Shown here: positions 14,504-29,087 of the stretch, piece after piece
Position numbering within the stretch: the stretch's first letter is position 1
Layout of the letters: each line of letters starts with the position of its first letter
Assembly: GCA_007693845.1 (NCBI GenBank)
Contig: RECV01000199.1
Location: 1-36,170, forward strand
Length of the DNA stretch: 36,170 bases
Direction: 5' to 3'
Source: Phycisphaerales bacterium
GTDB taxonomy: Bacteria > Planctomycetota > Phycisphaerae > Phycisphaerales > SM1A02
Notes under the pieces: generated by a model
The model's input: the letters and a program-made list of their open reading frames with translations, nothing else
Told to the model about the DNA's origin: nothing
Databases searched by the model: none
Position numbers and translations under genes: made by a program

Positions 14504-17500
14504 ATGAGCCGTCCGTCCGACTCCCACCACATCCGCGTCCGCGGCGCCCGCGAGCACAATCTGAAATCGCTCGATGTCGATCTCCCGCGCGATCAACTCG
14601 TCGTGATCACGGGCGTCTCGGGTTCGGGCAAGAGTTCGCTCGCCTTCGATACCATCTTCGCCGAGGGACAGCGGAAGTACATGGAGTCGCTCAGCGCGTA
14701 CGCGCGTCAGTTTCTCGATCAACTGCAGAAGCCCGATGTCGAGACCATTGAAGGCCTCCCCCCGACGATCGCGATTCAACAGCGCAGCGGCGGGCACAAC
14801 CCGCGCTCGACCGTCGCGACCACCACGGAGATCTATGACTACCTGCGCCTGCTCTTTGCCCGGTGCGGACAACCGACGTGTTGGCACGGAAGCGAGAGGC
14901 GCGAGGGGGTATGCGGGAAGCCCATCTCGGCTTCGAGCGCATCCCAGATCGTGGACACGCTGCTCAATGCGCCCGAAGGCACGCGGATGATGATCTGCGC
15001 GCCGGTCGTGCGCGGCAAGAAGGGCTACCACCGCGAAGTCATCGAGGGGCTGCAGAAGCAGGGCTTTGTCCGAGCGCGCGTGAACGGCGAGATCATCGAC
15101 ATCCGTGATGCGCTCAAGGAGGGCGGCGACAATCCGCTCAAGCTCGGCCGCTACGAAATGCACACCATCGAAGCGGTGGTGGATCGCATCGTCGTCAAGT
15201 CCGAAGCGCGGCAGCGCATCGCGGATTCCGTGGAAGCGGCGCTCAAACTTGCGGAAGGAACGTTGATCGCCCTCATCCAAACCGACGCCGGGACTGCCGA
15301 TCGCAGTGAGATAGGCCCGGATCGTTCCGGCGAGAAAACGCCCGCATCTTCCTCGCCTCGCTCGTCAGATGCGGCTTCGGGGCAGAATTGGATAGAGCAC
15401 CGGTTCAGTGAGAAGTTCGCCTGTCCGGATCATCCGGAGTGCTCGCTCGATGAATTGGAACCGCGATTGTTTTCGTTCAACTCGCCTTACGGCGCGTGCC
15501 CGAACTGCGATGGGCTTGGTCTGGTCAGCGAGTTCGATGAAGGCCTCATCGTGCCGGACACCTCGCTCAGTCTCGCGGAAGGCGCGATCGAGCCGTGGAA
15601 GAAAAACGGCAAGCGGATGAACATGTACTACGGTCGCGTCCTGCGCCGCTTCTGCGACGCGATGAATGTCGATCGGCACCAACCCTTCAGCAAGATGCGC
15701 AAAACCGCGAAGCGCGTGCTTCTGGAAGGCACGAACGACCGCGATGAGTCACGCTACGGCTTGAGCTTCGAGGGCGTCATCCCGAATCTGCACCGGCGGT
15801 ACGACAATTCCGAGAGCGACTTCGTGCGCGAGCGGCTGCGCCACTACATGACCAATGCCCCGTGCCCGACTTGCGAGAAGAAACGTCTGCGCATTGAAGC
15901 GCTGCACGTGCTGCTGAGCACCCGGCCGCAGAACGGTGACCGTGCGGCGTTTCGCGCATCAGACGGCTACTCGATCGCCGACATCACCAGCATGACGATC
16001 GATCAGGCGATCGGCTTCTTCGATTCGCTTGAACTATCCGAAGAACAGCAGCAGATCGCGGCCCCGATTCTGCGCGAGATCAACGCCCGACTCGGGTTCC
16101 TCGCATCGGTCGGGTTGAACTACCTCACGCTCAATCGCACCGCCTCCACGCTCTCCGGCGGGGAAGCGCAGCGCATCCGCCTCGCCACCCAGGTCGGCTC
16201 CGGGCTCGTCGGCACGTGTTACGTGCTGGATGAACCGACGATCGGCCTGCACCAGCGCGACAACGACCGGCTCATCAATACGCTCCGCAGTCTAACTGAC
16301 ATCGGTAACACGGTCCTCGTCGTCGAACACGATGAAGACATGATCCGTGCGGCAGACCACATTCTCGATATCGGCCCCGGTCCCGGAAAATGGGGCGGCA
16401 CCGTCGTCGCGCAGGGATCGCCCGAGGAAGTCATGGCCCATCCGCAATCGCTCACGGGTGACTATCTCGCCGGTCGGCGCTCCATCAAAGTGCCCGAAGA
16501 ACGACGCAAGCTGACCGAAGATCGCGCGATCGTTGTCAAGGGCGCGCGGGCCAACAACCTGCAATCGATTGATGTGACCTTTCCGCTCGGCGGGCTCATT
16601 TGCGTGACGGGCGTATCGGGTTCAGGCAAGTCCACGCTGGTCAATGAAATTCTGCTCAAAGCCGCGAAGAAGCAAGTCGTCGGTTCACGCATCACGCCCG
16701 GCGTGCATACGCGCGCGAACGGGCTCGGCCAGATTGATCGGGTGATAGAAGTCGACCAGTCCCCCATCGGTCGCACGCCGCGCTCCAACCCCGCAACGTA
16801 CACCGGCATCTTCGATGAGATCCGAAAGCTCTTCACCCACACGAAGGAAGCGAAAATCCGCGCGTACCAGCCCGGCCGATTCAGCTTCAACGTCAAGGGC
16901 GGCCGGTGCGAAGCGTGTCAGGGCCAGGGCGTGAAGAAGATCGAAATGCACTTCCTGCCCGATGTGTTCGTCACGTGTGAAGTGTGCAGGGGCGCGCGAT
17001 ACAACCGGGAAACACTCGAAGTCAAGTTCCGCGGCAAGACGGTCGCGGATGTGCTCGCCATGACCGTCGAGGAAGCGGTTGAATTCTTTGAAGCGCACCC
17101 GCGCGTGCTGCGTATGGCGCAATGTCTGCACGATGTCGGACTGGATTACCTTCAGCTCGGCCAGCCGTCGACGACGCTTTCCGGTGGCGAAGCGCAGCGG
17201 ATCAAACTCGCCAGCGAACTCGGCAATCAGGCGAGCGGGCATACGCTCTACGTGCTCGATGAACCGACCACGGGCCTGCACTTCGCGGATGTGGAGAAAC
17301 TGCTGAGCGTGCTCAACCGTCTGGCGGATCAGCGGCACACGCTCATCGTCATCGAGCACAATCTCGATGTGATCAAATGTGCCGACTGGATCGTCGACCT
17401 CGGGCCGGAGGGCGGCGATCGGGGCGGACAGGTGATCGCGGCCGGGACGCCCGAGAAAATCATGCGGGAAAAGGCGAGTCACACCGCGCGGTATCTCAAG

Positions 17501-17563
17501 CCGCTACTGGAACGATCCGATGCGCGGGCTTCCTCCCGACGTGTCGCCGCCGCAGGCGCGTAA
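14504..17563 (+). CDS. uvrA: UvrABC excinuclease subunit A
   Basis: 1019 aa; the damage-recognition ATPase of nucleotide excision repair. Two ABC modules are intact: Walker A GVSGSGKSS (37-45) and later GVSGSGKSTLVNE; signatures LSGGEAQRIRLA and LSGGEAQRIKLA; Walker B VLDEPTIGLH and VLDEPTTGLH. The C-terminal zinc module is standard (CEACQGQG...CEVCRGARY). The insertion-domain zinc finger differs: FACPDHPECSLDELEPRLF has C-x5-C where E. coli has C-x2-C, with GACPNCDGLG as the second half. The protein is about 80 aa longer than E. coli UvrA. Part of this is an insert at about residues 259-299, just before the first zinc finger, that carries a palindromic repeat translated as ASSSPRSSDAASG. The C-terminus is an Ala/Arg-rich tail. 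Confidence 0.98.
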   Translation: MSRPSDSHHIRVRGAREHNLKSLDVDLPRDQLVVITGVSGSGKSSLAFDTIFAEGQRKYMESLSAYARQFLDQLQKPDVETIEGLPPTIAIQQRSGGHNPRSTVATTTEIYDYLRLLFARCGQPTCWHGSERREGVCGKPISASSASQIVDTLLNAPEGTRMMICAPVVRGKKGYHREVIEGLQKQGFVRARVNGEIIDIRDALKEGGDNPLKLGRYEMHTIEAVVDRIVVKSEARQRIADSVEAALKLAEGTLIALIQTDAGTADRSEIGPDRSGEKTPASSSPRSSDAASGQNWIEHRFSEKFACPDHPECSLDELEPRLFSFNSPYGACPNCDGLGLVSEFDEGLIVPDTSLSLAEGAIEPWKKNGKRMNMYYGRVLRRFCDAMNVDRHQPFSKMRKTAKRVLLEGTNDRDESRYGLSFEGVIPNLHRRYDNSESDFVRERLRHYMTNAPCPTCEKKRLRIEALHVLLSTRPQNGDRAAFRASDGYSIADITSMTIDQAIGFFDSLELSEEQQQIAAPILREINARLGFLASVGLNYLTLNRTASTLSGGEAQRIRLATQVGSGLVGTCYVLDEPTIGLHQRDNDRLINTLRSLTDIGNTVLVVEHDEDMIRAADHILDIGPGPGKWGGTVVAQGSPEEVMAHPQSLTGDYLAGRRSIKVPEERRKLTEDRAIVVKGARANNLQSIDVTFPLGGLICVTGVSGSGKSTLVNEILLKAAKKQVVGSRITPGVHTRANGLGQIDRVIEVDQSPIGRTPRSNPATYTGIFDEIRKLFTHTKEAKIRAYQPGRFSFNVKGGRCEACQGQGVKKIEMHFLPDVFVTCEVCRGARYNRETLEVKFRGKTVADVLAMTVEEAVEFFEAHPRVLRMAQCLHDVGLDYLQLGQPSTTLSGGEAQRIKLASELGNQASGHTLYVLDEPTTGLHFADVEKLLSVLNRLADQRHTLIVIEHNLDVIKCADWIVDLGPEGGDRGGQVIAAGTPEKIMREKASHTARYLKPLLERSDARASSRRVAAAGA
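15342..15374 (+). repeat. Palindromic in-frame repeat, copy 1 (in uvrA)
   Basis: Arm CCGCATCT (15342-15349), 17-nt loop TCCTCGCCTCGCTCGTC, arm AGATGCGG (15367-15374): a perfect 8-bp inverted repeat. CTTCGGGGC follows, shared in part with the other copies (CTTCG). The 33-nt core equals 11 codons and adds ASSSPRSSDAASG-type sequence to UvrA about residues 280-293, where other UvrA proteins have a variable linker. Confidence 0.75.
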
Positions 17564-17680
17564 GCGACTGGTTCACCCACCGCTCCGTGCAAAATCCTGC
17601 GACCGGTTCCGAATCAGAACTCAGCCGTTTGACCGCAAACACGGCATCTTCTGAGACATCGAATCGATTGGAGTGGTTTC

Positions 17681-18316
17681 ATGACACAACCGCCTTCAGA
17701 TCAGGTGGATTTGTTTGAAACGGAACCGGCAACGGAGACGATCCCGCTCCAACGCATCGTGCCGACGCTCGACTCCGTTCTGAGTTGGCTGGTGATCGTG
17801 GTCCTCTTCGGTTCGTGCGGGCTGATCGCGTGGCTCGCTTACCTGGCCGGATCAGACTGGGGCAAGGTAGCCGGAATGGGATTCGGGCTCGCCGCGCTTC
17901 TCGCTCTCATGATGTTCGCGGTAGTGCGCATCTTGTGGACGCCGCAAGCTCGTCGATTCCCGGCTCAGCCGATCCTGAGCGATGCGATGGCCAGGTCCGG
18001 CCACTCGCTTGCCTTCGGCGCGCTCTGCCGTTTCAACGGCTGCATCACCGCGGTGGTTGACTCCCAACATCTGCATCTCGTGCCGGTGGCCGTTTTCCGG
18101 TGGTTCGGGGCGAAGCGGATGAGTCTGCCGTGGACCGCGATCCGCGATGTCCGCCCGTTTCTGATTCCGTCGTACGCCCGCGCGGAAGTTGCGGGGACCG
18201 CCATAATCGCACCGGCGTGGTGTCTTGAGCTGGCCTCAACCGCGGTGGAACTGACTCCCGGATCGACACCCCCTGAGCAAGTATTCCTCCCGATCGTGAA
18301 AGAAACGCATCGCTGA
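17681..18316 (+). CDS. Two-segment membrane protein of unknown function
   Basis: 211 aa. Two membrane segments (about 33-55 and 62-85) follow a short acidic cytoplasmic N-terminus. The C-terminal 120 residues form a soluble beta-rich domain (CITAVVDSQHLHLVPVAVF, then MSLPWTAIRDVRPF, then TAIIAPAWCLELAS). The strand pattern is reminiscent of bacterial PH-like domains, but this is an impression only. GGAG lies 8 nt before the ATG. It lies 117 nt behind uvrA and 177 nt before the next gene. I cannot assign a function. Confidence 0.72.
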   Translation: MTQPPSDQVDLFETEPATETIPLQRIVPTLDSVLSWLVIVVLFGSCGLIAWLAYLAGSDWGKVAGMGFGLAALLALMMFAVVRILWTPQARRFPAQPILSDAMARSGHSLAFGALCRFNGCITAVVDSQHLHLVPVAVFRWFGAKRMSLPWTAIRDVRPFLIPSYARAEVAGTAIIAPAWCLELASTAVELTPGSTPPEQVFLPIVKETHR

Positions 18317-18493
18317 GACGTCCTGAAAGACGCATTGAAGGACTTGCATCCTGCGCAGAGCTGAAGACAATAACACATTGACAACCGACAATAGACCGCC
18401 GAACGGGCGTGGGCTCCTTGTGGGGGCCGGCAAGACCGGGGGCCCGTCGGCTGGCCAGGCAGGTTCTTTCTGCGGAAAGGAGAGGTGCCTCAT

Positions 18494-19900
18494 ATGAAGC
18501 GCTACCGGAACTGGCGTCACGGCGCGGAGCAGCTCGCCGATGCGCTTGCGTATCTGGGCGAGCGCGATGAGAAACCGATCATCCTCGGTCTGGTCAACGG
18601 CGGGGTGGCCATCGCGGACATGATTGCCCGTCGATTGAACGCCCCACTGGATGTTCTGTTGATCGAACGTCTGCACGCGCCGGGTTCTCCGGAACACGTC
18701 GTCGGCGCGGTGGATGAGCACGGGCGCATCTCCATGATAAAGTCCAGCGCACGCTGGCATCATCTGACGAGCAAGCAGATGATCGAACCGGCGCGGGAGG
18801 TCTACCGCGAATTGCAGCGGCGGCGCGGGCCGATACGCGCGATCCTGCCCGAACTCGATCTGGAAGATCGAACGGTCATCATTGTCGGTCAGGGCATTCT
18901 GACCGGGGCGAAGATGCTTGGCGCCATCTCCGCAGTTCGTGATCGTGGGGCAAACAAAATCGTTGCGGCAGCCCCCGGCGGTCACGGAAAATCAATGTGG
19001 CAGTTGCATGATGTCGCGGATGAAGTGGTGGTTCCGCACCAGCCACCCAACGTGACCTCGGTCCGCGAGTTCTACGATGAATTTACCGAGATGACTGACG
19101 GACCGGTGGTCGCATTGATTGAACGGTGGCTGGAATCCCGGCAGGAGACGCGCGAGGGCATGTCCACCCTGCTGCTGAAGTTTCAGAGCACCGCCGGCCA
19201 CATGTTGCACTGCGAAGTCGATCTGCCGCCGGGTGTGAATCGTGGCAGTGGGCCGTACCCCGCCGTCGCCTTCGCCCACGGCTTCGAGAGCGACGCCAAG
19301 AGCCAGCGATCGGTTCCGATCAGCAAGCGACTGGCGAAGCGCGGCATCATCGGTGTTCGTTTCGACTTTACCGGCCACGGCCGATCCGAAGGGACCACAG
19401 AGGACGCGACCGACCAGCAAATGCTGGAGGACGTTCACACGATCTTCCAGAACATCACGCAACTGTACGAGGTCAATCCCCAACGGCTGGGGCTGAACGG
19501 CTCGGGAACCGGCGGCATGATCGCGCTCTACTACACCGCAAATCAGCCGCTGATCAAGGCGTTGGTCATCCGCGGTCCGGTCTGCGGCCGGGAGATCGAC
19601 GCCGCTCGTAAGGTCACCGCCCCGACACTTCTGATTCACGCGGAGCGTGATACCGCGCTGGAAGATCCGATCAGCGTGTTGGATCAGGAGTTGCGCGCAA
19701 CACACGAACTGCTGCGGGTGCCAAACTCGAACCGGATGTTCGATGATCCCGTCAGCCGGGAATTGATGATCAGCGCGACGGTTGACTGGTTCGTCGACCA
19801 TCTGCGCACGCCGACCACGATGCCGGAGCGCCCGGCCGAACCCTCCGAGGCCCCCTCCCGTGCCACGCAACCCGATTCCCCATCCACCCCTGCTCAGTGA
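18494..19900 (+). CDS. Phosphoribosyltransferase-like / alpha-beta hydrolase-like fusion, probable double pseudoenzyme
   Basis: 468 aa. Residues 1-220 follow the type I phosphoribosyltransferase plan (IILGLVNGGVAIADMIARRL, APLDVLLIERLHAPGSPEHVVGAV). The PRPP-binding loop reads VIIVGQGILTGA (128-139), with Gly-Gln (132-133) where active enzymes have two acidic residues (DD/DE). Residues 225-437 follow the dienelactone-hydrolase-like fold (AFAHGFESDAKS, FDFTGHGRSEG). The nucleophile elbow is GSGTGG (336-341), with Gly338 at the catalytic Ser position. The Asp is kept (ERD, 386), but the catalytic His position is Arg414 (NSNRMFDDP). A Pro-rich tail closes the protein. AAAGGAGAGG precedes the ATG at 18494, which favours it over an in-frame GTG at 18485. 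Possibly a sensor or scaffold; activity is doubtful. Confidence 0.82.
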   Translation: MKRYRNWRHGAEQLADALAYLGERDEKPIILGLVNGGVAIADMIARRLNAPLDVLLIERLHAPGSPEHVVGAVDEHGRISMIKSSARWHHLTSKQMIEPAREVYRELQRRRGPIRAILPELDLEDRTVIIVGQGILTGAKMLGAISAVRDRGANKIVAAAPGGHGKSMWQLHDVADEVVVPHQPPNVTSVREFYDEFTEMTDGPVVALIERWLESRQETREGMSTLLLKFQSTAGHMLHCEVDLPPGVNRGSGPYPAVAFAHGFESDAKSQRSVPISKRLAKRGIIGVRFDFTGHGRSEGTTEDATDQQMLEDVHTIFQNITQLYEVNPQRLGLNGSGTGGMIALYYTANQPLIKALVIRGPVCGREIDAARKVTAPTLLIHAERDTALEDPISVLDQELRATHELLRVPNSNRMFDDPVSRELMISATVDWFVDHLRTPTTMPERPAEPSEAPSRATQPDSPSTPAQ

Positions 19901-19927
19901 GCTGATGAGATCCGTCCCGGCCGGTCT

Positions 19928-20467
19928 TCATCCGCCGAACGTCGCGGCGAAGATTTCTTCGTGGATGTGCAGCGCCTTGTCATCGAAAAGCACAAAGCGG
20001 ATCAACTCAACCGACGACATGCGCGGCAGGGCCTCAAACACGGCATCCGCGGCGACGAGCGCGGCCTGCGCTATCGGATAACCGAATGCACCCGTCGAGA
20101 TCGCGGGAAACGCAATCGACCGGATATCCTTCTGGTTCGCCAAGCGGAGCGCACTTCGATAACAGTTCGTCAGCAGTTCCGGTTCGGGCTGATCCTGTCC
20201 GTACACCGGTCCAAGACAGTGAATCACGAAACGGTTGGGTAGATCGTGCCCACCGGTGATCACCGCCTCCCCCGGCTTGATCGGCGCGAGCGGTTCGCAT
20301 TCCTCGGCCAGACCGGGACCCGCGGCTGCATGAATGGCCCCCGCCACCCCACCGCCGGACATGAGCTCCGCGTTGGCAGCGTTCACGATCGCATCAAGGT
20401 CCCGCTGATTCGTGATGTCACCCTTGGTGCATTCCACACGGACGCCGTGTGCTTCATACTGCCACAT
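19928..20467 (-). CDS. Macro-domain protein, probable ADP-ribose / O-acetyl-ADP-ribose hydrolase
   Basis: 179 aa, a complete single macro domain of the YmdB/MacroD type. ADP-ribose-binding landmarks: KGDITNQRDLDAIVNAANAELMSGGGVAGAIHAAAG (15-50), VIHCLGPVYG (81-90), and the phosphate loop FPAISTGAFGYP (120-131). The Asn of VNAANA and the GGG loop expected for deacetylase activity are present. A strong ribosome binding site (AAGGAGATC) lies 7 nt before the ATG. It converges on the fusion gene (28-nt gap) and follows ispD by 67 nt on the same strand. It probably removes ADP-ribose modifications or O-acetyl-ADP-ribose in the cytoplasm. Confidence 0.9.
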   Translation of the reverse strand: MWQYEAHGVRVECTKGDITNQRDLDAIVNAANAELMSGGGVAGAIHAAAGPGLAEECEPLAPIKPGEAVITGGHDLPNRFVIHCLGPVYGQDQPEPELLTNCYRSALRLANQKDIRSIAFPAISTGAFGYPIAQAALVAADAVFEALPRMSSVELIRFVLFDDKALHIHEEIFAATFGG

Positions 20468-20534
20468 GCTGGATCTCCTTTTCGCACAGATGCGACCGGT
20501 TCGCCGCTCGCTGATATGGCTTCATAATCGATCT

Positions 20535-21323
20535 TCAGAACCGTTTGTGGGTCGGTCGTTCGGCGGGCGGCTTCACCCCCAGAATGGCGCGCATCAGATT
20601 CAAATCGTCGCGTGTCGTGACCTTGAGATTGCGTCGCTCCCCCGGCACGAGGTACACCGGCTCGCCGAGCCGCTCCACGAGCATCGCATCGTCGGTCGCG
20701 CCGTCGAGATCGGACTGTTCGTACGCGCGTCGAAGCAGCGACGCTTCGAACACCTGCGGCGTCTGAACTTCAAACAGCCCCGCCCGATCAACGGTTTCCA
20801 GCACCGACCGCGCTTCGATGGTCATGCGTCCCGCATCGCCGAGAATCGCATCCGCGAGCACATCGTCATCCGCATCACCAATCGTCTCGGCCTTCCCGCC
20901 GCGCTTCACGGTGCCGGCAATCGGTACGGCGGGCACGACCGCGGACAGGGACTTCGCCGCAGTGAAAACTCGTGAAAGCAAATCATCGCTGACGCCCGGA
21001 CGTGCAGCATCATGCACCGCGATGTGCGTGCAATCCTCATCAATCGCCGCCAACGCGTTTCGAACGGTTTCCCAACGTTCCGTTCGACCGCCTTCGACGA
21101 CCGTCGCGCCGTGAAAGCCGAGCGTGGCGGCAAACTTCTCACGGAATGCCTCAAAATCATCGGGCGGACCGGCGACGACGATACGGACCACTTCTTCCCG
21201 CTTCGTCAACGCCTCGACGGTGCGCAGCAGAAGCGCGCGACCACCCAGATCCTGGGCGAGCTTGTCCCCCCCACCGAACCGCTTGCTCTGCCCGGCCGCG
21301 GGCAGAATGACACCGATACGCAT
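20535..21323 (-). CDS. ispD: 2-C-methyl-D-erythritol 4-phosphate cytidylyltransferase
   Basis: 262 aa. Third step of the non-mevalonate (MEP) isoprenoid pathway: CTP + MEP gives CDP-ME + PPi. The nucleotide-binding signature VILPAAGQSKRFGGGDKL opens the protein; THIAVHDAARPGVSDDLL, VPAVPIAGTVKR, FEVQTPQVFEASLLRRAYE and the TDDAMLVERLG block follow in the usual order. ATG at 21323 was chosen because GGAGG lies 8 nt upstream; a longer frame from 21350 has no such site. ispF, a common neighbour or fusion partner, is absent nearby. The C-terminal 20 residues beyond MRAILGVK are an extension. Confidence 0.95.
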   Translation of the reverse strand: MRIGVILPAAGQSKRFGGGDKLAQDLGGRALLLRTVEALTKREEVVRIVVAGPPDDFEAFREKFAATLGFHGATVVEGGRTERWETVRNALAAIDEDCTHIAVHDAARPGVSDDLLSRVFTAAKSLSAVVPAVPIAGTVKRGGKAETIGDADDDVLADAILGDAGRMTIEARSVLETVDRAGLFEVQTPQVFEASLLRRAYEQSDLDGATDDAMLVERLGEPVYLVPGERRNLKVTTRDDLNLMRAILGVKPPAERPTHKRF

Positions 21324-21405
21324 GGGACGACCTCCGTCACGAGTGAGCATCCCATGCTAACACCGTTTGAACGGCTGCGGAATTCCATGGCCGCGCAATG
21401 AAAAT

Positions 21406-21435
21406 GGTCACGGACGCGCACGAGCGTCCGTGACC
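21406..21435 (-). terminator. Strong hairpin terminator behind the haloperoxidase gene
   Basis: GGTCACGGACGC (21406-21417), loop GCACGA, and GCGTCCGTGACC (21424-21435) form a perfect 12-bp stem. Read on the minus strand the stem is followed by ATTTTC, a short T-run. It lies 56 nt behind the haloperoxidase stop codon and before ispD on the same strand, so it should separate the two transcripts. Confidence 0.75.
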
Positions 21436-21491
21436 AGCGAAAAGGAACTGATACCCCCACCCACAAGTGGCTCAATTCAATGAGCCCAGTG

Positions 21492-23672
21492 TCAGTTACA
21501 GGCCCCCCAATTCTCGAGGAGGATGAGCAGATCAAACACATCAACCATGCCATCGGTCATGAGGTCCGCCTCACAACCATCGCAACGGCCCCACTGAGAG
21601 AGGAGCATGAGCAGATCAAAGACATTCACATCACCCGAGTCTGTCAGGTCGCCGACACAGACTTTCTTCGGGTGGATGCCGAAGAGTTCAAACGCCTTGG
21701 CCGATGCAATCTCGCCGATCTTCTGCCCCTGGAACCGTGCGGGGAAGTCGTCCACGTAGGGGTGGATTCCGCCGTAGATACGTGATCGGGCCGACTGATC
21801 AGAGCAGTCGAAGTACCGCGCCCACTGCAGAGTGACGTCCTGGCTCGGGCCGTATTCAAAGTCCAGAAAATCTCCCTGCTGAATGTGGTATTCACCCAGA
21901 CCGCCCGGGAAGTACGGGCTTCCGGTGAGTTCCGACAGCGCGACCGCCGCGGCTCGGCTGAACGTCGTGTGCCCGGAGGTGTAACCGGGGAACGGTGGGG
22001 TGATGAACGTGGCGAGTTGATAGGTGCTCCAACGCTTCGCCAGGATCCACTGCACGCCGCTGTAGGACGCGTCATACTGGTGGTACTGCGGGTCTGTCCA
22101 GATGTTCTGATATGAGATCGGCTCATAGGCCAGTTCATTGTCCGAGGGTGACCCCGGCCATGCCATAACCGCGATCTCGCCGATGAACTGCTCGACGTCA
22201 TACTGGTTCTCACCGTTCTCATCCGGAATCGCAAACCCGAATTCATCGACCACCATCTCCGCGAGATGCGCGTGCTTTCCGCCCGGCGCTGCGGTCTCCT
22301 CGGTGATCAGTTCGATGATGCCCGGGATCAGAGGCAACCCGTGCGGGTGGTAGGAAGGCAGGTTCGGATCGGATGATTGTCCGCGTTCAGCCATGTAGCG
22401 AATGGCGTACACCGGCCGCACGTAGTCGTAGAAACCCTTGACACCCCAGCAGGCGACGGCCGCATCGTGCGTCGCGCCGTTGAGCATCAGGTACATCTTC
22501 ACATCCCACTCGAGGCGATCCACGATCGGGCCTTCGCCGCCGATGCGATGCTCAAAGATCGGGCTGTCCGCGACAAGTTCGTTGGCGATCTCGTTCCAGT
22601 GACCAGGCGGCGTGGAGCTTTGCGGCCCGTCGGCCCAGAACTCTGCGACTATTCGACCATAGTCACCGTAATTGATCACGTTCGGCGGGTACGGTTCGCC
22701 TGTGACCGGGTTCTTGCCGTAACCCTGACCGTCATTCGAACCAAGCGGATTCTTGCCGAACACCGCCGGGGAGATATCGATCATGATGCCGAGGTCAGGG
22801 TCAAGTTGACTGGACGTCACGATGACGTCAGCAAACGTGTCGATGTATTCCTGCTGGCGCTCCGTGTCGAGCATCGGAGGTGCACCGGGGTCGAGGTAAA
22901 GACCCGGCGCATCCAGATGTTCCTCGCGTAATGCAAACGGTGTGACGTACCCCCAATGCGGACCGATCGCTACCGGCACATTGCCGGCAATGATGTTGCC
23001 CGCCTGATCGACCTGGGTCTCCAACCAGGTGGACGCCCAGCGATTCGGATCGGTGACGAAATCAAGCGGCAGGCCCAAGTTGGCAACGGCGATCGGTTCG
23101 TTGACCGGCTGGTACGGATCGAGTGTGAACGGATCGAGCGGGGCAAAATTGTTCAACTCGTTGGATCCGTCTTCCCATCCCGTTTCGATGATGATCTGCG
23201 CGATTCGGTTTCCAATCGCGGCCGGCGAGTCACCCTCAGTCGAAGTGAACGTCGCGTCGTAGCCCATCATCGAGAACTGGTCATCCAGCATAGGCTGAAT
23301 GACCTTGGCCCCTGCGGCCTGCTCAAATCGGTACTTCAGGATGCGGTAGGCCGCATAGCTGATCGCCTCCTCACGGGCCGCCTTGACATCACGCGGGGCA
23401 GGATACTTCTCGGTGTAGAACACGCCCAGCGCCGTGTCGTCGTACACCGCCCACGCGTCGTACATCGCTGCGGACGTGTGGTAGAGATTTCTCGCGTGAA
23501 CCGGCGGCCGAGCGCGATCATTCCGGATCGACTCCAAGGTCATTTCATTCCAGACTCTCGCGGCAGACCAATCCGACGAGCCGGCCGTTGCCTCTTGCAG
23601 CGACCATCCGATGGCTCCGACAGAGAGCACGCACGTCATCGCCATTACACATGTTTCCTTCTTGATCTTCAT
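21492..23672 (-). CDS. Secreted vanadium-dependent haloperoxidase-like protein with dockerin-type tail
   Basis: 726 aa. Signal peptide MKIKKETCVMAMTCVLSVGAIG, likely cut after EATA. The vanadate/PAP2 active-site motifs appear in order. KGFYDYVRP (about 411-420) fits K-x6-RP. GYTSGHTTF (about 560) is the PSGH motif with Thr for Pro. SRIYGGIHPYVDD (about 629) fits SR-x5-H-x3-D. It may oxidise halides with peroxide outside the cytoplasm, or act as an acid phosphatase. From about 675 two dockerin-like units follow (GDLTDSGDVNVFDLLMLLSQWG and ADLMTDGMVDVFDLLILLENWG) with acidic Ca2+-loop residues, a tail typical of exported proteins in this bacterial group. ATG at 23672 was chosen because GGAGG lies 9 nt upstream. 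Confidence 0.88.
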   Translation of the reverse strand: MKIKKETCVMAMTCVLSVGAIGWSLQEATAGSSDWSAARVWNEMTLESIRNDRARPPVHARNLYHTSAAMYDAWAVYDDTALGVFYTEKYPAPRDVKAAREEAISYAAYRILKYRFEQAAGAKVIQPMLDDQFSMMGYDATFTSTEGDSPAAIGNRIAQIIIETGWEDGSNELNNFAPLDPFTLDPYQPVNEPIAVANLGLPLDFVTDPNRWASTWLETQVDQAGNIIAGNVPVAIGPHWGYVTPFALREEHLDAPGLYLDPGAPPMLDTERQQEYIDTFADVIVTSSQLDPDLGIMIDISPAVFGKNPLGSNDGQGYGKNPVTGEPYPPNVINYGDYGRIVAEFWADGPQSSTPPGHWNEIANELVADSPIFEHRIGGEGPIVDRLEWDVKMYLMLNGATHDAAVACWGVKGFYDYVRPVYAIRYMAERGQSSDPNLPSYHPHGLPLIPGIIELITEETAAPGGKHAHLAEMVVDEFGFAIPDENGENQYDVEQFIGEIAVMAWPGSPSDNELAYEPISYQNIWTDPQYHQYDASYSGVQWILAKRWSTYQLATFITPPFPGYTSGHTTFSRAAAVALSELTGSPYFPGGLGEYHIQQGDFLDFEYGPSQDVTLQWARYFDCSDQSARSRIYGGIHPYVDDFPARFQGQKIGEIASAKAFELFGIHPKKVCVGDLTDSGDVNVFDLLMLLSQWGRCDGCEADLMTDGMVDVFDLLILLENWGACN

Positions 23673-24213
23673 TCCGTGTTCCTCCACGAGTCAGCCGTCC
23701 ATCAGGATGGCCGACAATTTCAAAGATGACCCGATCACAATTCGATCAAAGACCCTGCCAGCGAAGCCATCATGATCCGGCGTGGTCTGATCCCACATCG
23801 GGTCGATTATCAGTACCAGACATGGAGTTTGTGGCCGATCGGATCAATGTCAATCGAATCCTTCTCAATTCAAGACAGTTTCTTCAAAAAGTTGGGCCTC
23901 ATAAACAGGAATATTTTACTGTTATACTTCTACTTCTATGCATATTCTGATTCTATTCTATCTCCTCCTTTGGCCCTGAAAAGATTTTGATCCTGTATTG
24001 AAGAGGAATATTTTTATATATCGACCGGACGAGTTCTGTTGAACCTGCCAATCATCGCTTGAATATGTGCCGTGATGCGGTACGCTGTCCCTTTATCAGA
24101 CTGTGATCAAGTCCGAGGATGGTACTTGTTCATATCGGATTTGCACGATTGATCCTACTTCATCCAAGCGGTGGATCGCACACTACACTGAGTGCCAACG
24201 AGGTAACACCCCT
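23673..24213. other. AT-rich divergent intergenic region
   Basis: This 541-bp spacer between two divergent genes has no convincing coding frame. By eye count, 23881-24060 has about 36% GC, against 60% or more in most of the window. It holds runs such as ATATTTTTATATAT around 24008-24021, AGGAGGAGA read on the minus strand near 23965, and several possible promoter boxes. Promoters of both flanking genes should lie here; the composition could also mark foreign DNA or a nucleoid-protein binding site. Confidence 0.55.
23987..24016 (+). promoter_or_regulatory. Candidate sigma-70-like promoter
   Basis: TTGATC (23987-23992) and TATTTT (24011-24016) are separated by 18 nt and lie in the AT-rich block, about 200 nt upstream of the CMD-domain gene. 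Both boxes deviate from consensus, and other pairings in this AT-rich stretch are possible. Confidence 0.22.
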
Positions 24214-25611
24214 ATGCAATCTCGCAGAGCTTCGGCCCAACTTCTTACGTTGATGGATTTCGAGTCGAAAATGACCCGTGCCTGGTTCGCGGCACTCTCC
24301 GTACCAAGAGGCGGACGGCGCACTTGCATCGGCCGAGGACGACCGACACGCTCCCCTGCTGTCGGTAGTGTCGCGGGCATCATCATCATGAGTGGGCTGC
24401 TACTTCCCCAGCCGGTGACGGCGGGCTCAGATCCTGCCGACGCTCGGTCCGATCCGGACCGAGTCTCTCGAGTTGCCCAGGACGCAGCCCTCCCCGAAAC
24501 GATCGAACTCGCTTTCGAACCGCTTGAGGAAGGTCGGTACCCGAATTATCTGCGGGCCTGGTCATCCATCCCTGGCGGCCCGGAAGCAATGGCAGACCTG
24601 TGCGCGACCTTCCTCTACGGTGGGAGTTTGGATGCGGAGAAGAAGATGGCCATGGGGCTGGCCATCGCGCTCGAGGAGAAGTCGGACTACACCGCTGCGC
24701 ATATGTCACGTCTCCTCGGCGCGACGGCTAGTGGCCGCAAACTGATGCGGGCAGTTCACGACGATGAAGTACTCTCCGATCTGAGCCGGCGCGAGCGGCT
24801 GGCTATTCGGTACGCACGGTCCTTGACCTACGAGGTCAGCGGATTCGGTGATGAACGCTTTCGTGAACTGCGCAGCTGGTTTCAGGAGCCGGAAATCATC
24901 GAGCTGACGATGGTCGCCAGCTTCTTCAGCTATTTCAATCGAACTGTCGAGCCCCTCAATCTGCCCATCGAACAATGGGCAACATACCCCGCGGAGAAGC
25001 GTTTTCTGCCGGATCGAACCAGCCGGCGACCGGAAGCAAGGGTCGCACTGCTGAGCGATGATGAAATCCGCCTATTGGCGGATCGTGTTCAGGAAGATGC
25101 CCCCACGTCACCCATGACCGGAGAGCAGATCGCCAACTCGATGCGTGCCATGTCGCGCGTGCCGGACATGCGCGTGGCGTGGATGGAACTCTTTGCGGTC
25201 TGGCGCGATCGTTCCGTCATTGGCGAGGCCATGCAGCACTACATTTCCAATGAGGTGTCCTACTTCAACGATTGCCATTACTGCAAGACCCACCAGGTCC
25301 AAAAACTGTTCAACACCGGTGTGTCGATTGATCACATCGCCCGTGCCGTTGATAATCCCGAGAGTCTGCCCGACGCCGAGCGGCTGGCCGTCTCCGTCGC
25401 CCGGGAGATCACGCGAGACCCCACCGCAATGACCGATGCCCGCTATGCTGAATTGACGGAACTCTTCGGCGAGCTCGGGGCATTCGAAGTCTTGCAGGTC
25501 ATCGCCCGATTCAATTTCATGAACCGCTTCACATCCGGGCTGGGCCTGCCCGCTGAAGCGATGCCGGAAGAAACGCTCCGCCGCGTGGAAGCGGCCCGGC
25601 AATCGAACTGA
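24214..25611 (+). CDS. Exported two-domain carboxymuconolactone decarboxylase / AhpD-like protein
   Basis: 465 aa from the chosen ATG. Two related all-helical CMD/AhpD-like domains are visible (about 110-260 and 290-455). The second keeps the redox motif: NEVSYFNDCHYCKTH, with Cys354 and Cys357 preceded by Glu seven residues earlier and followed by His360, as in AhpD-type peroxidase partners. In the first domain the equivalent segment (ALEEKSDYTAAHM) has Ser and Thr instead of the cysteines. A hydrophobic stretch (about 50-64) ending LPQPVTAG looks like a signal peptide behind an unusually long Arg-rich n-region. Start uncertain: 24214 has GAGG about 11 nt upstream; 24103 (GTG) and 24271 (ATG) are alternatives. 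It is divergent from the haloperoxidase, so a shared peroxide-related role is possible. Confidence 0.8.
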   Translation: MQSRRASAQLLTLMDFESKMTRAWFAALSVPRGGRRTCIGRGRPTRSPAVGSVAGIIIMSGLLLPQPVTAGSDPADARSDPDRVSRVAQDAALPETIELAFEPLEEGRYPNYLRAWSSIPGGPEAMADLCATFLYGGSLDAEKKMAMGLAIALEEKSDYTAAHMSRLLGATASGRKLMRAVHDDEVLSDLSRRERLAIRYARSLTYEVSGFGDERFRELRSWFQEPEIIELTMVASFFSYFNRTVEPLNLPIEQWATYPAEKRFLPDRTSRRPEARVALLSDDEIRLLADRVQEDAPTSPMTGEQIANSMRAMSRVPDMRVAWMELFAVWRDRSVIGEAMQHYISNEVSYFNDCHYCKTHQVQKLFNTGVSIDHIARAVDNPESLPDAERLAVSVAREITRDPTAMTDARYAELTELFGELGAFEVLQVIARFNFMNRFTSGLGLPAEAMPEETLRRVEAARQSN

Positions 25612-25620
25612 GTGATCGCG

Positions 25621-25635
25621 CCGGCCGTTGGCCGG
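25621..25635. terminator. Hairpin behind the CMD-domain gene
   Basis: CCGGCC-GTT-GGCCGG is a perfect 6-bp GC stem with a 3-nt loop, 10 nt behind the stop codon. There is no T-run, so termination would have to be atypical. Confidence 0.35.
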
Positions 25636-25739
25636 AAGGAGTACCGGGCCTGCTATGGGAGCGTGGAGTAAGTGCCCCCGCATCCGGCTATCATGGTGCA
25701 GTCGTTTCCTCGGCCGGTCCGCCGAGCGGGAAGCGTGCT

Positions 25740-25813
25740 GCACCCGTAGCTCAGCAGGATAGAGCACCGGTTTCCTAAACCGGCGGTCGGTGGTTCGAAT
25801 CCACCCGGGTGCG
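25740..25813 (+). tRNA. tRNA-Arg (anticodon CCT)
   Basis: A full 74-nt cloverleaf can be drawn. Acceptor stem GCACCCG (25740-25746) pairs with CGGGTGC (25806-25812). The D arm contains TAGCTCAGCAGGATAGAGC. Anticodon stem CCGGT/ACCGG encloses the loop TTCCTAA with anticodon CCT (25774-25776), which reads the arginine codon AGG. The T arm is GGTGG-TTCGAAT-CCACC. The 3' CCA is not encoded. It stands alone between the CMD-domain gene and aroA. No repeat of its 3' end was noticed, so there is no sign of integration here. Confidence 0.96.
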
Positions 25814-25845
25814 TTCGGGATACCTGATGTGACGCCTCATCCCGG

Positions 25846-27315
25846 TCAGCGGGAGGCGGATGATTCGTACAGCTTCGCGAAGTCGCGCCAGAACGTGGGG
25901 TAACTCTTGGCGACGCATTTGGGATTGGCGATCGCGATCCCCGGGCGGACCAGGCCGAGGATCGCGAAGCTCATCGCCATGCGGTGGTCGTTGTAGGTTT
26001 CGATCGTGATCTGCGCGGGCGAGCTGGAAGCGCCCGAAGCCGCGTCTGACGACCGAAGGGAGGAAGACGCGGTTTGAGGGGGCTCGCCCGTGGTGTCACC
26101 CGCACGTTCCTCCCTGCGGTCGTCACGTGCGGCTTCGAGGGGCGTAATCGTAATTGAATCGTCCGTCGTCTCGACCGTGCAGCCGATCTTGCGCAGTTCG
26201 TTCGCCAGCGCTGCGATGCGGTCGGTCTCCTTGACGCGCAGCGTGTGCAGGCCGGTGATGGTGGATGGGCCGTCGGCCCGCGACAGAGCAACACAGAGCG
26301 CCATCGCGCCGTCGGGATACAAACGCGCATCGGTCTCCAGCGGCCGCAGTGTGGCGTTTTCTACCGGCCATCGGACATCGCTTGCCCACTGATGACCCGA
26401 ATCCCACTTCCAAACGGCCGGTTGCAGCCGCCTCGCAACGTACACATCCGGCTGCTGCGAATGAAACGGAAGATGAGGAATTCTTGCTCGTGACTCGGTG
26501 ATTGCTGCAGCGACGATCCAATACGCTGCACTACTTGCGTCTGGCTCGATAATGAGCTCCATCGACTCGATTCGTTGCTCTGGAACAAGAACCGCCAACT
26601 CATCTTCTTCGAGCATGTTTCGATAGTCTGCATCCCAATCGGCGATACAGCCGACGGTGAGATGGAGATACGAAACACTCGTTGGCCTTTCCCGAAAGTT
26701 CACCCGAATCCCGCCCCTCATCCACGGCCCGATCAACATGAGCGCCGAGATAAACTGACTGCTTGCGGTCTTGCCGATTGAGAGTTCGCCGCCTTTGAAA
26801 TCCTCACTCGGCACGATGCGCACCGGCAGGCGGCCTTCTTCCTCGACGTACTCGATCGTCGCCCCCAACTTCCGCAGCATCTCGACGCCCTCGGCAATCG
26901 GGCGCTCGTGCATGCGCGGCGAACCGTCCACGACCACCGGCTCCGCGGCCAGGCACGCCGCGGCGATCATGAAGCGCGTGGGCGTGCCGCCGTCGCCGAG
27001 GTTCACCGATCCGCCGCGCGGAAAGCGACCGGCCACGCCTTTGATGAGGACATCATCGCCATCTTCTCCGGCGACCCACCGCGCTTCCGCCCCGAGCGTG
27101 CACAGCGCATCGAGCAGCGCATCGGTGTCCTCCGAGCGCAGCGGCCGAATGATCCTTGATTCCCCCTCCGCCAGTGCCGCCAGCACGTACGCCCGATTGG
27201 TGATGCTTTTACTTCCCGGGGGCCGAATCGTTACATCGAACGGCTTCTCCAGCGGCACGATCGGCAGCGGATCAGGGAGCTGGTCAAGCGGAAGCGTGTA
27301 ATCGGCTGGATTCAT
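25846..27315 (-). CDS. aroA: 3-phosphoshikimate 1-carboxyvinyltransferase (EPSP synthase)
   Basis: 489 aa; sixth step of the shikimate pathway, joining PEP and shikimate 3-phosphate. Family landmarks in order: PPGSKSITNRAYVLAALAEG, NLGDGGTPTRFMIAAACL, DGSPRMHERPI, TASSQFISALML, EPDASSAAYWIVAAAIT, LRVKETDRIAALANELRKIG and YNDHRMAMSFAILGL. It is about 50-60 aa longer than common AroA. One cause is an insert at about 390-435, before the YNDHRMAM motif, carrying two palindromic repeats. Another oddity is the central part (about 180-300): it departs from family sequence (HSQQPDVYVARRLQPAVWKW) and has clearly lower GC. ATG at 27315 was chosen because the homologous region begins soon after; 49 further upstream codons are open but look non-coding. 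Confidence 0.95.
   Translation of the reverse strand: MNPADYTLPLDQLPDPLPIVPLEKPFDVTIRPPGSKSITNRAYVLAALAEGESRIIRPLRSEDTDALLDALCTLGAEARWVAGEDGDDVLIKGVAGRFPRGGSVNLGDGGTPTRFMIAAACLAAEPVVVDGSPRMHERPIAEGVEMLRKLGATIEYVEEEGRLPVRIVPSEDFKGGELSIGKTASSQFISALMLIGPWMRGGIRVNFRERPTSVSYLHLTVGCIADWDADYRNMLEEDELAVLVPEQRIESMELIIEPDASSAAYWIVAAAITESRARIPHLPFHSQQPDVYVARRLQPAVWKWDSGHQWASDVRWPVENATLRPLETDARLYPDGAMALCVALSRADGPSTITGLHTLRVKETDRIAALANELRKIGCTVETTDDSITITPLEAARDDRREERAGDTTGEPPQTASSSLRSSDAASGASSSPAQITIETYNDHRMAMSFAILGLVRPGIAIANPKCVAKSYPTFWRDFAKLYESSASR
26040..26072 (-). repeat. Palindromic in-frame repeat, copy 2 (in aroA)
   Basis: On the minus strand: arm CCGCGTCT, loop TCCTCCCTTCGGTCGTC, arm AGACGCGG, then CTTCGGGCGC. 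The 8-bp arms pair perfectly. It is read in the same orientation as aroA and translates as TASSSLRSSDAASG, nearly the same peptide as the uvrA copy. Confidence 0.8.
26100..26132 (+). repeat. Palindromic in-frame repeat, copy 3 (in aroA, opposite orientation)
   Basis: Arm CCGCACGT (26100-26107), loop TCCTCCCTGCGGTCGTC, arm ACGTGCGG (26125-26132), then CTTCGAGGGGC. It lies antisense to aroA and is translated from the other strand as EAARDDRREERAGD. It is 27 nt from copy 2 and faces it. Confidence 0.8.
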
Positions 27316-27407
27316 GAAAGTTGGACCTGCTGCGTCAAAGTCAGCCAACATCGTAGTGTGACATACGAAGTCACGGATCGAGACTCGGAGCGAAGATCGG
27401 AAGTCGA

Positions 27408-29087
27408 TCAGTACCCGACCGCCTGACCGTCGCGGCGGTGGTCGCTCGCGCCGAGATAGCAACCGTTGGCGAGCCGCTGAATTGCCTGCCCCCCGCCGTG
27501 GCTGACATTTCGTTCGTGAACCACTTCGGCGGCATGACCGCGTTGCTGCAGTTCCTCATACGCGCCTGAGGGGAAGCCGGCTTCGATCGTCAATCGCTTG
27601 CCCTCGAAGACCTGCCAGCGGGGTGCATCGAGCGCGGCCTGCGGGTCCTGATCAAAGTCGATGGTGCGCACCGCCATCTGCAGGTGGCCCTGGGGTTGCA
27701 TGAACCCGCCCATGACTCCGAAGGCGAGGTGGGGTTGTTGGTCACCCGCGACTTCCTCGCTGCGGTCACCCGCGACTTCCTCCCTTCGGTCGTCAGTCGC
27801 GGCTTCGTTGCGGGTGATGAAGCCCGGGATGATGGTCTGGTATGGGCGCTTGCCGCCGGCGGCTTCGTTGGGATGTCCCGCTTCAAGCGTGAAACACGCC
27901 CCGCGGTTCTGAAGCGCGATGCCCGTGTCGGGGATGACGATGCCCGAGCCGAACCCCATGTAGTTCGACTGGATGAATGTCACCATCGTGCCTTCCGCAT
28001 CGGCGGCAGTGAGCAGCACGGTTCCCCCCGGTTTCGGCGGGCCGTGACCAAAGTCCTGTGCGCGATTTCGATCGACTTTCGCCGCCAGCTCATCCAGGTG
28101 AGCATCGGCAATCAATGCGTGAGGATCTTCCGTCATCCAGTCCGGGTCCGCGATGGACCGGTGCGCTTCCGCGAACGCGAGCTTCATGGCTTCAATCTGA
28201 ACGTGCAGAGTGTCGGCATCATCGGGGCCGTGTTCGTTCAGATCGAATCGGCGCACGATCCCCAGCGCGATCAGTGCAGCGATTCCTTGCCCGTTCGGCG
28301 GCAGTTCCCACAACGTGCAGCCGTTTCGATACGGCATGCCGAGTGGTGCGGCATCAACCGTCGCATGCTCCGCCAGGTCGGCGTGATCAAGCACCCAGCC
28401 CGCTCCACGCGAAGCCGCCACAATGCGGCCCGCCAACTCGCCGGTGTAGAACGATTCCCCTTCCGTTTCCGCAATTCGGCGAAGGGTATCGGCATGGCGC
28501 GGAGCAACGAAGAGTTCACCCGCGCGCGGAGCGCGGCCGTTCGGCGCGAACGTCGCGCGCCATTCGTCGAAAGCGCTGAGCGTTTTGAATGCGCGATGCC
28601 AGTCATCAGCCGTTTGCGGCGAAACGGGAAATCCGCCTTCCGCGTACTTGATCGCCGGTTCGAAGAGTGCCTCGAACTTGAAACGGCCGTGCGCGCGATG
28701 AAGATCCCGCCACAGCGCGACCGCGCCCGGCACGGTGACGGTCGGCCAGCCGCGGACCGGCATGCGGTCCTGATCCGGGAGCAACTCCCGTGAGAACGCG
28801 CGGGGCGAGCGGCCGGATCCGTTCATGCCGTGCAGGCGGCCGCTCTTCCAGAACAACGCAAACGCATCGGAACCGATTCCGTTGCTGGTCGGCTCCACTA
28901 CGGTCAGGGTGATGGCCATGGCAATCGCGGCGTCGATCGCATTGCCGCCATGCTGAAGGATGCGCAGCCCCGCCTGGTCCGCCAACGGCTGTGATGTGGC
29001 GACCATGTTCGCCGCAAAAATCGACGTGCGCGGCGCGGGGTACTTCATTCGGGACGAAGGCATGGCCACACAGAATACGCCGCTCAT
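27408..29087 (-). CDS. ggt: Gamma-glutamyltransferase family protein
   Basis: 559 aa, an N-terminal-nucleophile hydrolase that normally self-cleaves before a Thr. Landmarks: NMVATSQPLADQAGLRILQHGGNAIDAAIAM, EPTSNGIGSDAFAL, PNGQGIAALIAL, then the catalytic entry GGTVLLTAADAEG with the Thr of GGT as likely nucleophile. SNYMGFGSGIVIPDTGIALQNRG and FGVMGGFMQPQGH follow. No signal peptide is visible, so it may be cytoplasmic, like several YwrD-type members. An insert before FGVMGGF holds palindromic repeat sequence (NEAATDDRREEVAGDRSEE). Starts at 29087, 29063 or 29048 are possible. It lies 54 nt behind mrpG and 92 nt before aroA on the same strand, so read-through is possible. Confidence 0.9.
   Translation of the reverse strand: MSGVFCVAMPSSRMKYPAPRTSIFAANMVATSQPLADQAGLRILQHGGNAIDAAIAMAITLTVVEPTSNGIGSDAFALFWKSGRLHGMNGSGRSPRAFSRELLPDQDRMPVRGWPTVTVPGAVALWRDLHRAHGRFKFEALFEPAIKYAEGGFPVSPQTADDWHRAFKTLSAFDEWRATFAPNGRAPRAGELFVAPRHADTLRRIAETEGESFYTGELAGRIVAASRGAGWVLDHADLAEHATVDAAPLGMPYRNGCTLWELPPNGQGIAALIALGIVRRFDLNEHGPDDADTLHVQIEAMKLAFAEAHRSIADPDWMTEDPHALIADAHLDELAAKVDRNRAQDFGHGPPKPGGTVLLTAADAEGTMVTFIQSNYMGFGSGIVIPDTGIALQNRGACFTLEAGHPNEAAGGKRPYQTIIPGFITRNEAATDDRREEVAGDRSEEVAGDQQPHLAFGVMGGFMQPQGHLQMAVRTIDFDQDPQAALDAPRWQVFEGKRLTIEAGFPSGAYEELQQRGHAAEVVHERNVSHGGGQAIQRLANGCYLGASDHRRDGQAVGY
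27741..27788 (+). repeat. 24-nt tandem duplication inside the ggt repeat insert
   Basis: 27741-27764 and 27765-27788 are two adjacent 24-nt units, each beginning GTCACCCGCGACTTCCTC, that differ at only two positions by eye. The first unit is a truncated palindromic repeat (5' arm CCGCGACT plus 14 loop bases); the second begins the complete copy. In the protein it gives two similar eight-residue blocks (RREEVAGD and RSEEVAGD). Confidence 0.75.
27770..27802 (+). repeat. Palindromic in-frame repeat, copy 4 (in ggt)
   Basis: Arm CCGCGACT (27770-27777), loop TCCTCCCTTCGGTCGTC, arm AGTCGCGG (27795-27802), then CTTCG. It is antisense to ggt and translated as EAATDDRREEVAGD. Flanking CACCCGC and GCGGGTG could pair as an alternative outer stem. 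It sits in the turn between ITRN and HLAFGVMGG. Confidence 0.8.

Follow-up and report, generated by a model that had tools for sequence, protein, structure and literature searches.

Palindromic elements within uvrA, aroA and ggt

The window examined here is a 36,170-nucleotide stretch of DNA from a Phycisphaerales bacterium (assembly GCA_007693845.1, contig RECV01000199.1), and it carries a family of short palindromic repeats within three housekeeping genes. The host open reading frames (ORFs) match UvrA (UvrA_inter and UvrA_DNA-bind domains), EPSP synthase (AroA) and gamma-glutamyltranspeptidase (GGT). These repeats are very probably non-autonomous hairpins of the repetitive extragenic palindromic (REP) or REPIN kind, moved in single-stranded form by a matching HUH Y1 transposase that resembles the REP-associated tyrosine transposases (RAYTs) and has its gene on contig C263 of this genome. 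The features of the window are as follows.

14504-17563, plus strand: uvrA ORF with insert
15282-15326, plus strand: decayed partner copy, upstream in UvrA, which makes the insert a doublet (28.4 bits, E 7.2e-5)
15342-15378, minus strand: full element in UvrA with its foot (59.6 bits; foot 15375-15378, CTTC on the plus strand, GAAG on the purine-rich strand)
25846-27462, minus strand: aroA ORF with doublet (start codon as listed)
26036-26072, plus strand: full element in AroA (66.0 bits; foot GAAG at 26036-26039)
26100-26136, minus strand: full element in AroA (64.3 bits; foot 26133-26136)
27408-29087, minus strand: ggt ORF with element
27746-27767, minus strand: truncated tandem copy adjoining the GGT element
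27770-27806, minus strand: full element in GGT (67.6 bits; foot 27803-27806)

Scored with a covariance model built from 19 copies of the genome, to which they belong by construction, the full copies of the window reached 59.6 to 67.6 bits (E 1.4e-14 to 4.7e-17). Their 33-nt cores (15342-15374, 26040-26072, 26100-26132 and 27770-27802) have perfect 8-bp arms and a 17-nt interior. A previous, sequence-only reading of the window had reported these four copies and the truncated one; all of them were found again, with exact arm complementarity in the four. Some details needed correction. The two AroA copies form an inverted doublet with the feet pointing outward, and UvrA holds the second, decayed copy. 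The arm was said to start with CCGC, which holds in the window, while CCGC or CCGG occurs genome-wide. The neighbouring sequence given as constant CTTCG is reduced to CTTC, or GAAG on the other strand, a foot found unchanged in all 19 aligned copies. Similarly, the pyrimidine strand is free of stops in every frame, as had been noted, but the purine strand has a TGA in one frame, leaving five of the six consensus frames open.

Read along the purine strand, the element consists of the GAAG foot, an 8-nt arm (mostly CCGSNNNT), GACGA, a 7-nt apical part (e.g. CC GAA GG), GAGGA and the complementary arm, followed mostly by GT. The outer arms covary: 29 cells were changed on both sides versus 7.9 in shuffles, and none of 500 shuffles reached the observed score, in agreement with the early proposal that the stem is maintained. 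One apical pair covaries as well (C-G 14, G-C 3 and A-U 2 among the 19 aligned copies). The interior thus has the 17-nt length first given to it but is not a plain loop, since this covariation points to a structure of its own. GACGA opposite GAGGA can be read as the pairs G.A, A.G, C-G, G.A and A.G, and the whole element would form one helix of about 15 pairs capped by a triloop, mostly GNA. The former loop is best read as a continued helix with tandem G.A pairs around a Watson-Crick pair. The G.A pairs probably have sheared geometry, and the apical part presumably resembles the d(GCGAAGC) mini-hairpin, which is very stable. In the three copies tried, DNA folding favoured the purine strand over its complement (-10.2, -11.0 and -11.4 versus -7.6, -8.4 and -8.4 kcal/mol).

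Genomes are designated G000 (the window's own, a 3.26-Mb assembly) and upwards, and most of them are draft assemblies. Hairpins from related genomes show the compensatory changes expected of this structure. In 92 distinct hairpins, the pair enclosed by the outer tandem GA was C-G in 46, G-C in 38, G.T in 5 and A-T in 3; this count took in only perfect arms, 8 bp or longer and beginning with CCG, CTG or CCC, and includes a few nested tandem copies. The enclosed position was paired in 68 of 68 unique interiors, versus 33.2 (sd 4.1) with one side shuffled, in a sample biased to pairing because this pair formed part of the search model, although the model's own copies are all C-G. Copies with imperfect arms exist and lie outside the hairpin and foot counts. 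The apical hairpin varies in length and is 7 bp long in one G005 copy.

Each genome has its typical foot: GAAG in G000 (21/23) and G032 (6/6),.ACG in G005 (9/9), CAAG or TAAG in G014 (16/16), CAAG in G052 (20/22) and TAAG in G010 (8/12). The boundary at GAAG was set from the two C263 doublets and the 19-copy alignment, since comparison with empty sites did not fix the exact ends, the family orthologues being too divergent and the congener sites holding remnants. Truncated tandem copies abut full ones at 27746-27767 of the window and on C263 (L032, 1584-1640 and 2325-2380). A partial copy on C263 stops exactly at an internal GAAG, the same sequence as the foot, and this may mark a cutting point.

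Copies in related genomes and inside proteins

A pattern search allowing up to three mismatches gave 25 matches in the genome against 4 for a reversed control; by alignment, 19 of the 25 are true copies and the other six look like chance. The repeats thus exceed what chance would give. A covariance scan of the genome and its relatives, which the sequence-only reading had recommended, disclosed further copies: the model built from the 19 gave 28 matches at E<=1 in G000, 25 of them at E<1e-4. All seven pairs lying less than 100 bp apart (start to start), which account for 14 of the 25 copies, are inverted with their feet outward. REPINs are described as inverted REP doublets (PMC3116915), and the doublets of G000 are likewise two inverted palindromes a short distance apart. 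Matches at E<=0.01 were present in 20 of 61 genomes, G000 included, and nine carry three or more: G000 (25), G005 (22), G010 (40), G014 (17), G032 (7), G033 (3), G040 (4), G052 (33) and G053 (22). The two congeners, G001 and G002, carry 0 and 2 matches, respectively.

Of the 25 copies, 7 lie in recognised proteins, including two weak matches. The in-frame inserts proposed in three housekeeping genes were upheld by the domain matches to UvrA, AroA and GGT, and RimO was added as a fourth gene, with a perfect in-frame copy (G000 contig C189, 168-212) in a third frame. In all, three different reading frames are used, which give unrelated peptides. The seven include a weak match in the E2 (dihydrolipoamide acetyltransferase) gene (C18:9500, 32.6 bits), which looks decayed but lies within an acidic linker. 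The ORFs spanning the 18 copies outside recognised proteins were listed by length, and a Pfam scan of five ORFs gave no match; an NCBIfam scan of one spanning ORF placed the start of NuoD downstream of the element.

Orthologues were compared using the longest open frame, and rows from the wrong strand or another gene were not counted (UvrA L120, L124, L126, L130, L132, L133 and L143, many AroA rows and at least four GGT rows). As had been anticipated for a mobile unit, readable orthologues of UvrA, AroA, GGT and RimO from outside the genus lack it, save one AroA copy in G005. The UvrA insert was absent from all 11 readable rows among the 15 from the family outside the genus, while G002 and G001 keep decayed or shortened remnants in which the stem is not fully paired. 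In AroA, the unit is absent from G014 and G001. The same AroA loop of G005 carries a single copy, most likely an independent insertion because its foot is the ACG type of its own genome. Most readable relatives have a shorter GGT loop, and G003 has a long loop of unrelated sequence, which indicates that this loop is variable and not simply empty. Remnants of the RimO insert occur in the congeners, while the remaining family members that were viewed have no such insert. In G000, then, UvrA and RimO carry perfect palindromes, and in both congeners these have decayed.

Translated in-frame insertions at sites empty in relatives, the mark of the RPE/PPE elements, were found in UvrA, AroA, GGT and RimO. 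They look like tolerated insertions in variable loops, and the simplest reading is that selection filters insertions, those in frame in tolerant loops surviving. Two further UvrA genes (L118 in G043 and L119 in G047) carry a different repeat-like insert, with peptides of the PALPRKAGGGS or SRLRGND type, in the loop equivalent to 15290-15390 of the window, so that this loop accepts several kinds of insert. The RimO of G011 (L413) has another repeat-like insertion in a second loop.

The C263 transposase and its clade

Contig C263 carries a 200-codon ORF (192 codons if a later start is used) between two inverted doublets, which are near-identical at the two gene ends. A divergent transposase of the REP-associated type, which the sequence-only reading had advised seeking in this genome, is present. 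By itself the C263 protein matched nothing in Pfam (at E<=1) or NCBIfam, and for want of such a match a first Y1_Tnp search missed its gene. The three Pfam Y1_Tnp genes of the genome were tried as candidates and rejected, the element match at their loci never falling below E 0.6. The Y1_Tnp genes at L026 (G000:C219) and L028 (G000:C248) have different palindromes on their flanks, which probably represent additional REP-like families, and the one at L027 sits at a contig edge.

The HxH and Tyr columns are conserved in the clade and intact in the C263 protein. Its AlphaFold model (pLDDT 88.1, pTM 0.82) has a Y1 HUH fold, and VIA matched it to IS608 TnpA (Z 12.1, 102 residues, 2.3 A) and to the E. 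coli RAYT 4er8 (Z 11.4, 123 residues, 3.0 A); unrelated folds (Thg1, parvovirus NS1) appeared from about Z 9 down, two to three units lower. The top Foldseek rows were these same two proteins, none below E 0.001. A sequence search of solved structures with the transposase returned unrelated weak matches only, and PHROGs gave nothing significant for the protein itself and weak transposase matches for two relatives. The HUH motif with a single Tyr (Y1) that characterises RAYT/TnpA_REP is thus seen both in the conserved columns and in the predicted fold.

A profile was built from the C263 protein and its element-flanked homologues in G005, G052 and G032, the last of them truncated. This profile recovered one clade gene in G000 at E<=1e-5, plus a weaker C219 gene, and at 100 bits or more it found the clade in 5 of 37 family genomes (G000, G005, G010, G014 and G032). 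These are five of the six family genomes with three or more copies (Fisher p 1.4e-5; p 0.005 when the three family genomes used as profile seeds are left out). Among all 61 genomes, three or more copies occur in 8 of 18 clade carriers versus 1 of 43 others (p 1.1e-4).

The gene is flanked by its own REPs in G000, G005, G014, G032, G052 and L335, and such flanks are weaker or absent at more distant clade loci. Two of these homologues, G014:C31 and L335, stand outside the profile and have elements on both sides; the G014 flanks had been noticed before the profile was made, so that L335 is the only fully blind confirmation. Other Y1_Tnp loci had an element match at E<0.001 in 1 of 25 scanned (32 fetched), about 650 bp away. 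The transposase ORF of G005:C276 (L205, 1495-2124) runs into its flanking element and acquires an element-derived peptide at the C-terminus.

Hairpins closed by GA..GA made up 68 of 500 in the flanks of 89 non-duplicate clade loci, spread over 30 loci, whereas shuffled flanks gave 2-4 of about 200 and the flanks of 23 other Y1_Tnp loci 2 of 100; this test took perfect arms of at least 7 bp, the shuffles were simple dinucleotide-block ones and the control loci had slightly different flank windows. Before duplicates were removed, GA..GA was the commonest kind of hairpin (76/532). On a transposase tree of the 26 loci with a readable foot, the A/C base of the foot changed 3 times versus 8.9 in shuffles, and still 3 times without three duplicate rows, which shows that the foot base follows the transposase tree. 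Named carriers are mostly metagenome-assembled genomes of Planctomycetota, many of them Phycisphaerales (75 loci). Locus L351, titled Vicinamibacteraceae (Acidobacteriota), has the same transposase gene as G047, a genome from the order of the window, and the title is probably wrong.

Proposed mobilisation, alternative explanations and known REP systems

The early suggestion of a small non-autonomous mobile element has gained support from the additional copies, their patchiness, the orthologous sites without the unit, the doublets and the transposase lying between copies. In the mechanism that we propose, the enzyme would recognise a short foot (GAAG; elsewhere mostly N-A-A-G or N-A-C-G) at the base of an 8-9-bp stem, beyond which come tandem G.A pairs and a small apical hairpin. 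It probably reads the purine-rich strand, presumably the one that is cut, probably handles doublets with feet outward, and may cleave near the foot. Insertions that fall in frame in variable loops of tolerant proteins would survive and be translated, presumably without harm. In E. coli, the foot matters for cleavage and regularising the mismatched stem abolished activity, while selection experiments favoured the mismatched-stem bases only moderately (PMC8266576). Because foot and mismatched stem matter there, the foot and the tandem GA may by analogy be the natural recognition features here.

Several observations weigh against mobilisation by this enzyme. No movement or excision was observed, and we infer it. 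Remnants in the congeners show that the insertions into UvrA and RimO are old. When the four genomes that supplied the profile are set aside, the association over all genomes becomes modest (4/14 versus 1/43, p 0.011), and the element is not abundant in 10 of the 18 clade carriers. The clade genes of G010 and G053 are not flanked by this type of element, and the transposase gene of G032 is truncated. The clade gene was not found in G033 (3 copies) or G002 (2), a weak absence in draft assemblies. Finally, 59 of the 89 clade loci had no perfect GA..GA hairpin in the tested flanks; at several of these loci, palindromes of other kinds recur to either side of the gene.

Some of these points would suit a fossil family, in which a RAYT spread the repeats long ago and they are now immobile; what keeps the stems perfect would then be correction by template switching as the DNA is replicated, or a different role. 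Since G001 and G002 have remnants of them, the inserts in UvrA and RimO are older than the genus, but G000 has them as perfect palindromes; in addition, the G032 gene is broken. We nevertheless consider it rather unlikely, as the doublets at the two ends of the C263 gene are near-identical and its HUH and Tyr positions are intact. It is very improbable that the element is adapted to proteins, its inserts favoured as peptide modules and its in-frame, nearly stop-free design selected, as suggested for Rickettsia palindromes. Copies in four proteins and five open frames of six agree with such an adaptation, which the sequence-only reading had put forward as a possibility; the DNA palindrome covaries, however, while the peptide differs, and the congeners retained the UvrA and RimO remnants without the palindrome. 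That notion is not supported: survival of harmless insertions suffices, because just 7 of 25 copies lie in recognised proteins, in three frames with unrelated peptides, and in loops that are variable or empty in relatives. Hairpins that serve the host as RNA or DNA (as terminators, stabilisers of mRNA or sites for protein binding) and never were mobile would explain the stable fold and the many copies that no recognised protein spans, but are very improbable in view of intragenic insertion in both orientations, orthologous sites without the unit, a patchy distribution among relatives and doublets that flank a transposase gene.

Taken together, these features are best explained by REP-like hairpins moved by the C263 transposase. 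A narrower proposal is a real possibility, put forward tentatively: a self-contained REP class of Planctomycetota, in which a divergent HUH transposase would read an N-A-A-G or N-A-C-G foot and tandem, probably sheared, G.A pairs around a freely changing Watson-Crick pair, the foot co-evolving with it, and in which intragenic palindromes would be kept perfect for as long as the genome has the enzyme and would degenerate after its loss. The clade transposase was not found in the two congeners, whose assemblies are 63 and 76 percent complete. Since these old inserts persist in both with the palindrome broken, the question of how palindromes are maintained against decay becomes testable.

The family would add a branch of REP/RAYT systems with a foot and an internal motif unlike the two described tag superfamilies, and its transposase can escape standard family models. 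The natural variation of foot and enzyme would offer a system for studying how single-strand transposases choose their DNA. The family also accounts for unusual peptides that single lineages have in UvrA, AroA, GGT and RimO, a point of importance for annotating and aligning housekeeping proteins.

Among known systems, the family is like the GTAG REPs and REPINs with class 2 RAYT/TnpA_REP in its four-base 5' foot, inverted doublets, flanked HUH Y1 gene, irregular in-stem bases and some intragenic copies, uvrA included (PMC3116915, PMC8266576, PMC3733652). It differs in its foot, which is GAAG, CAAG, TAAG or.ACG and not GTAG or GTGG, and in the tandem GA modules of its interior. The class 2 motif, described as Y---NP (PMC6006769), was found in 0 of 24 readable rows (read by eye, one truncated row left out), and the family models miss the protein of G000. 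TnpA_Y1 class 3, described from Planctomycetes and Acidobacteria with a CnGA foot and a Y----Q motif, is similar in being mainly planctomycete, and in its conserved N-terminal extension and atypical gene-side hairpins, which can reach high numbers in a genome (PMC6006769); judged by that description alone, our clade departs from it, with Q in 3 of 24 rows (by eye) and a foot that is mostly N-A-A/C-G. The CGTC REPs, which include Rickettsia RPE-4 and RPE-6, are also palindromes in coding regions, usually as doublets, and are reported with a CGTC tag, stems beginning with A/T, loops of 4-5 nt and no dedicated transposase (PMC3733652). Here CGTC occurs only within the element (pyrimidine strand), the stem starts with CCG and the interior has 17 nt, so that the likeness to the protein-inserted repeats of Rickettsia and Wolbachia drawn in the sequence-only reading extends to behaviour but not to the tag or to the rules for the stem. 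REPs lying inside genes of Opitutus and Rickettsia are described as also striking uvrA or uvrB (PMC3733652, PMC6006769, PMC8266576). With IS200/IS605 elements (IS608, ISDra2) the family shares the Y1 HUH fold and hairpins at both gene ends, but it has many gene-less doublet copies, and no full-length insertion-sequence copies of the gene were seen in G000. No description of GAAG- or CAAG-footed or tandem-GA REPs was found in the openly accessible part of the literature searched. The family therefore appears to work like a REP/RAYT system while belonging to no described subclass, because a defining tag or motif fails for each.

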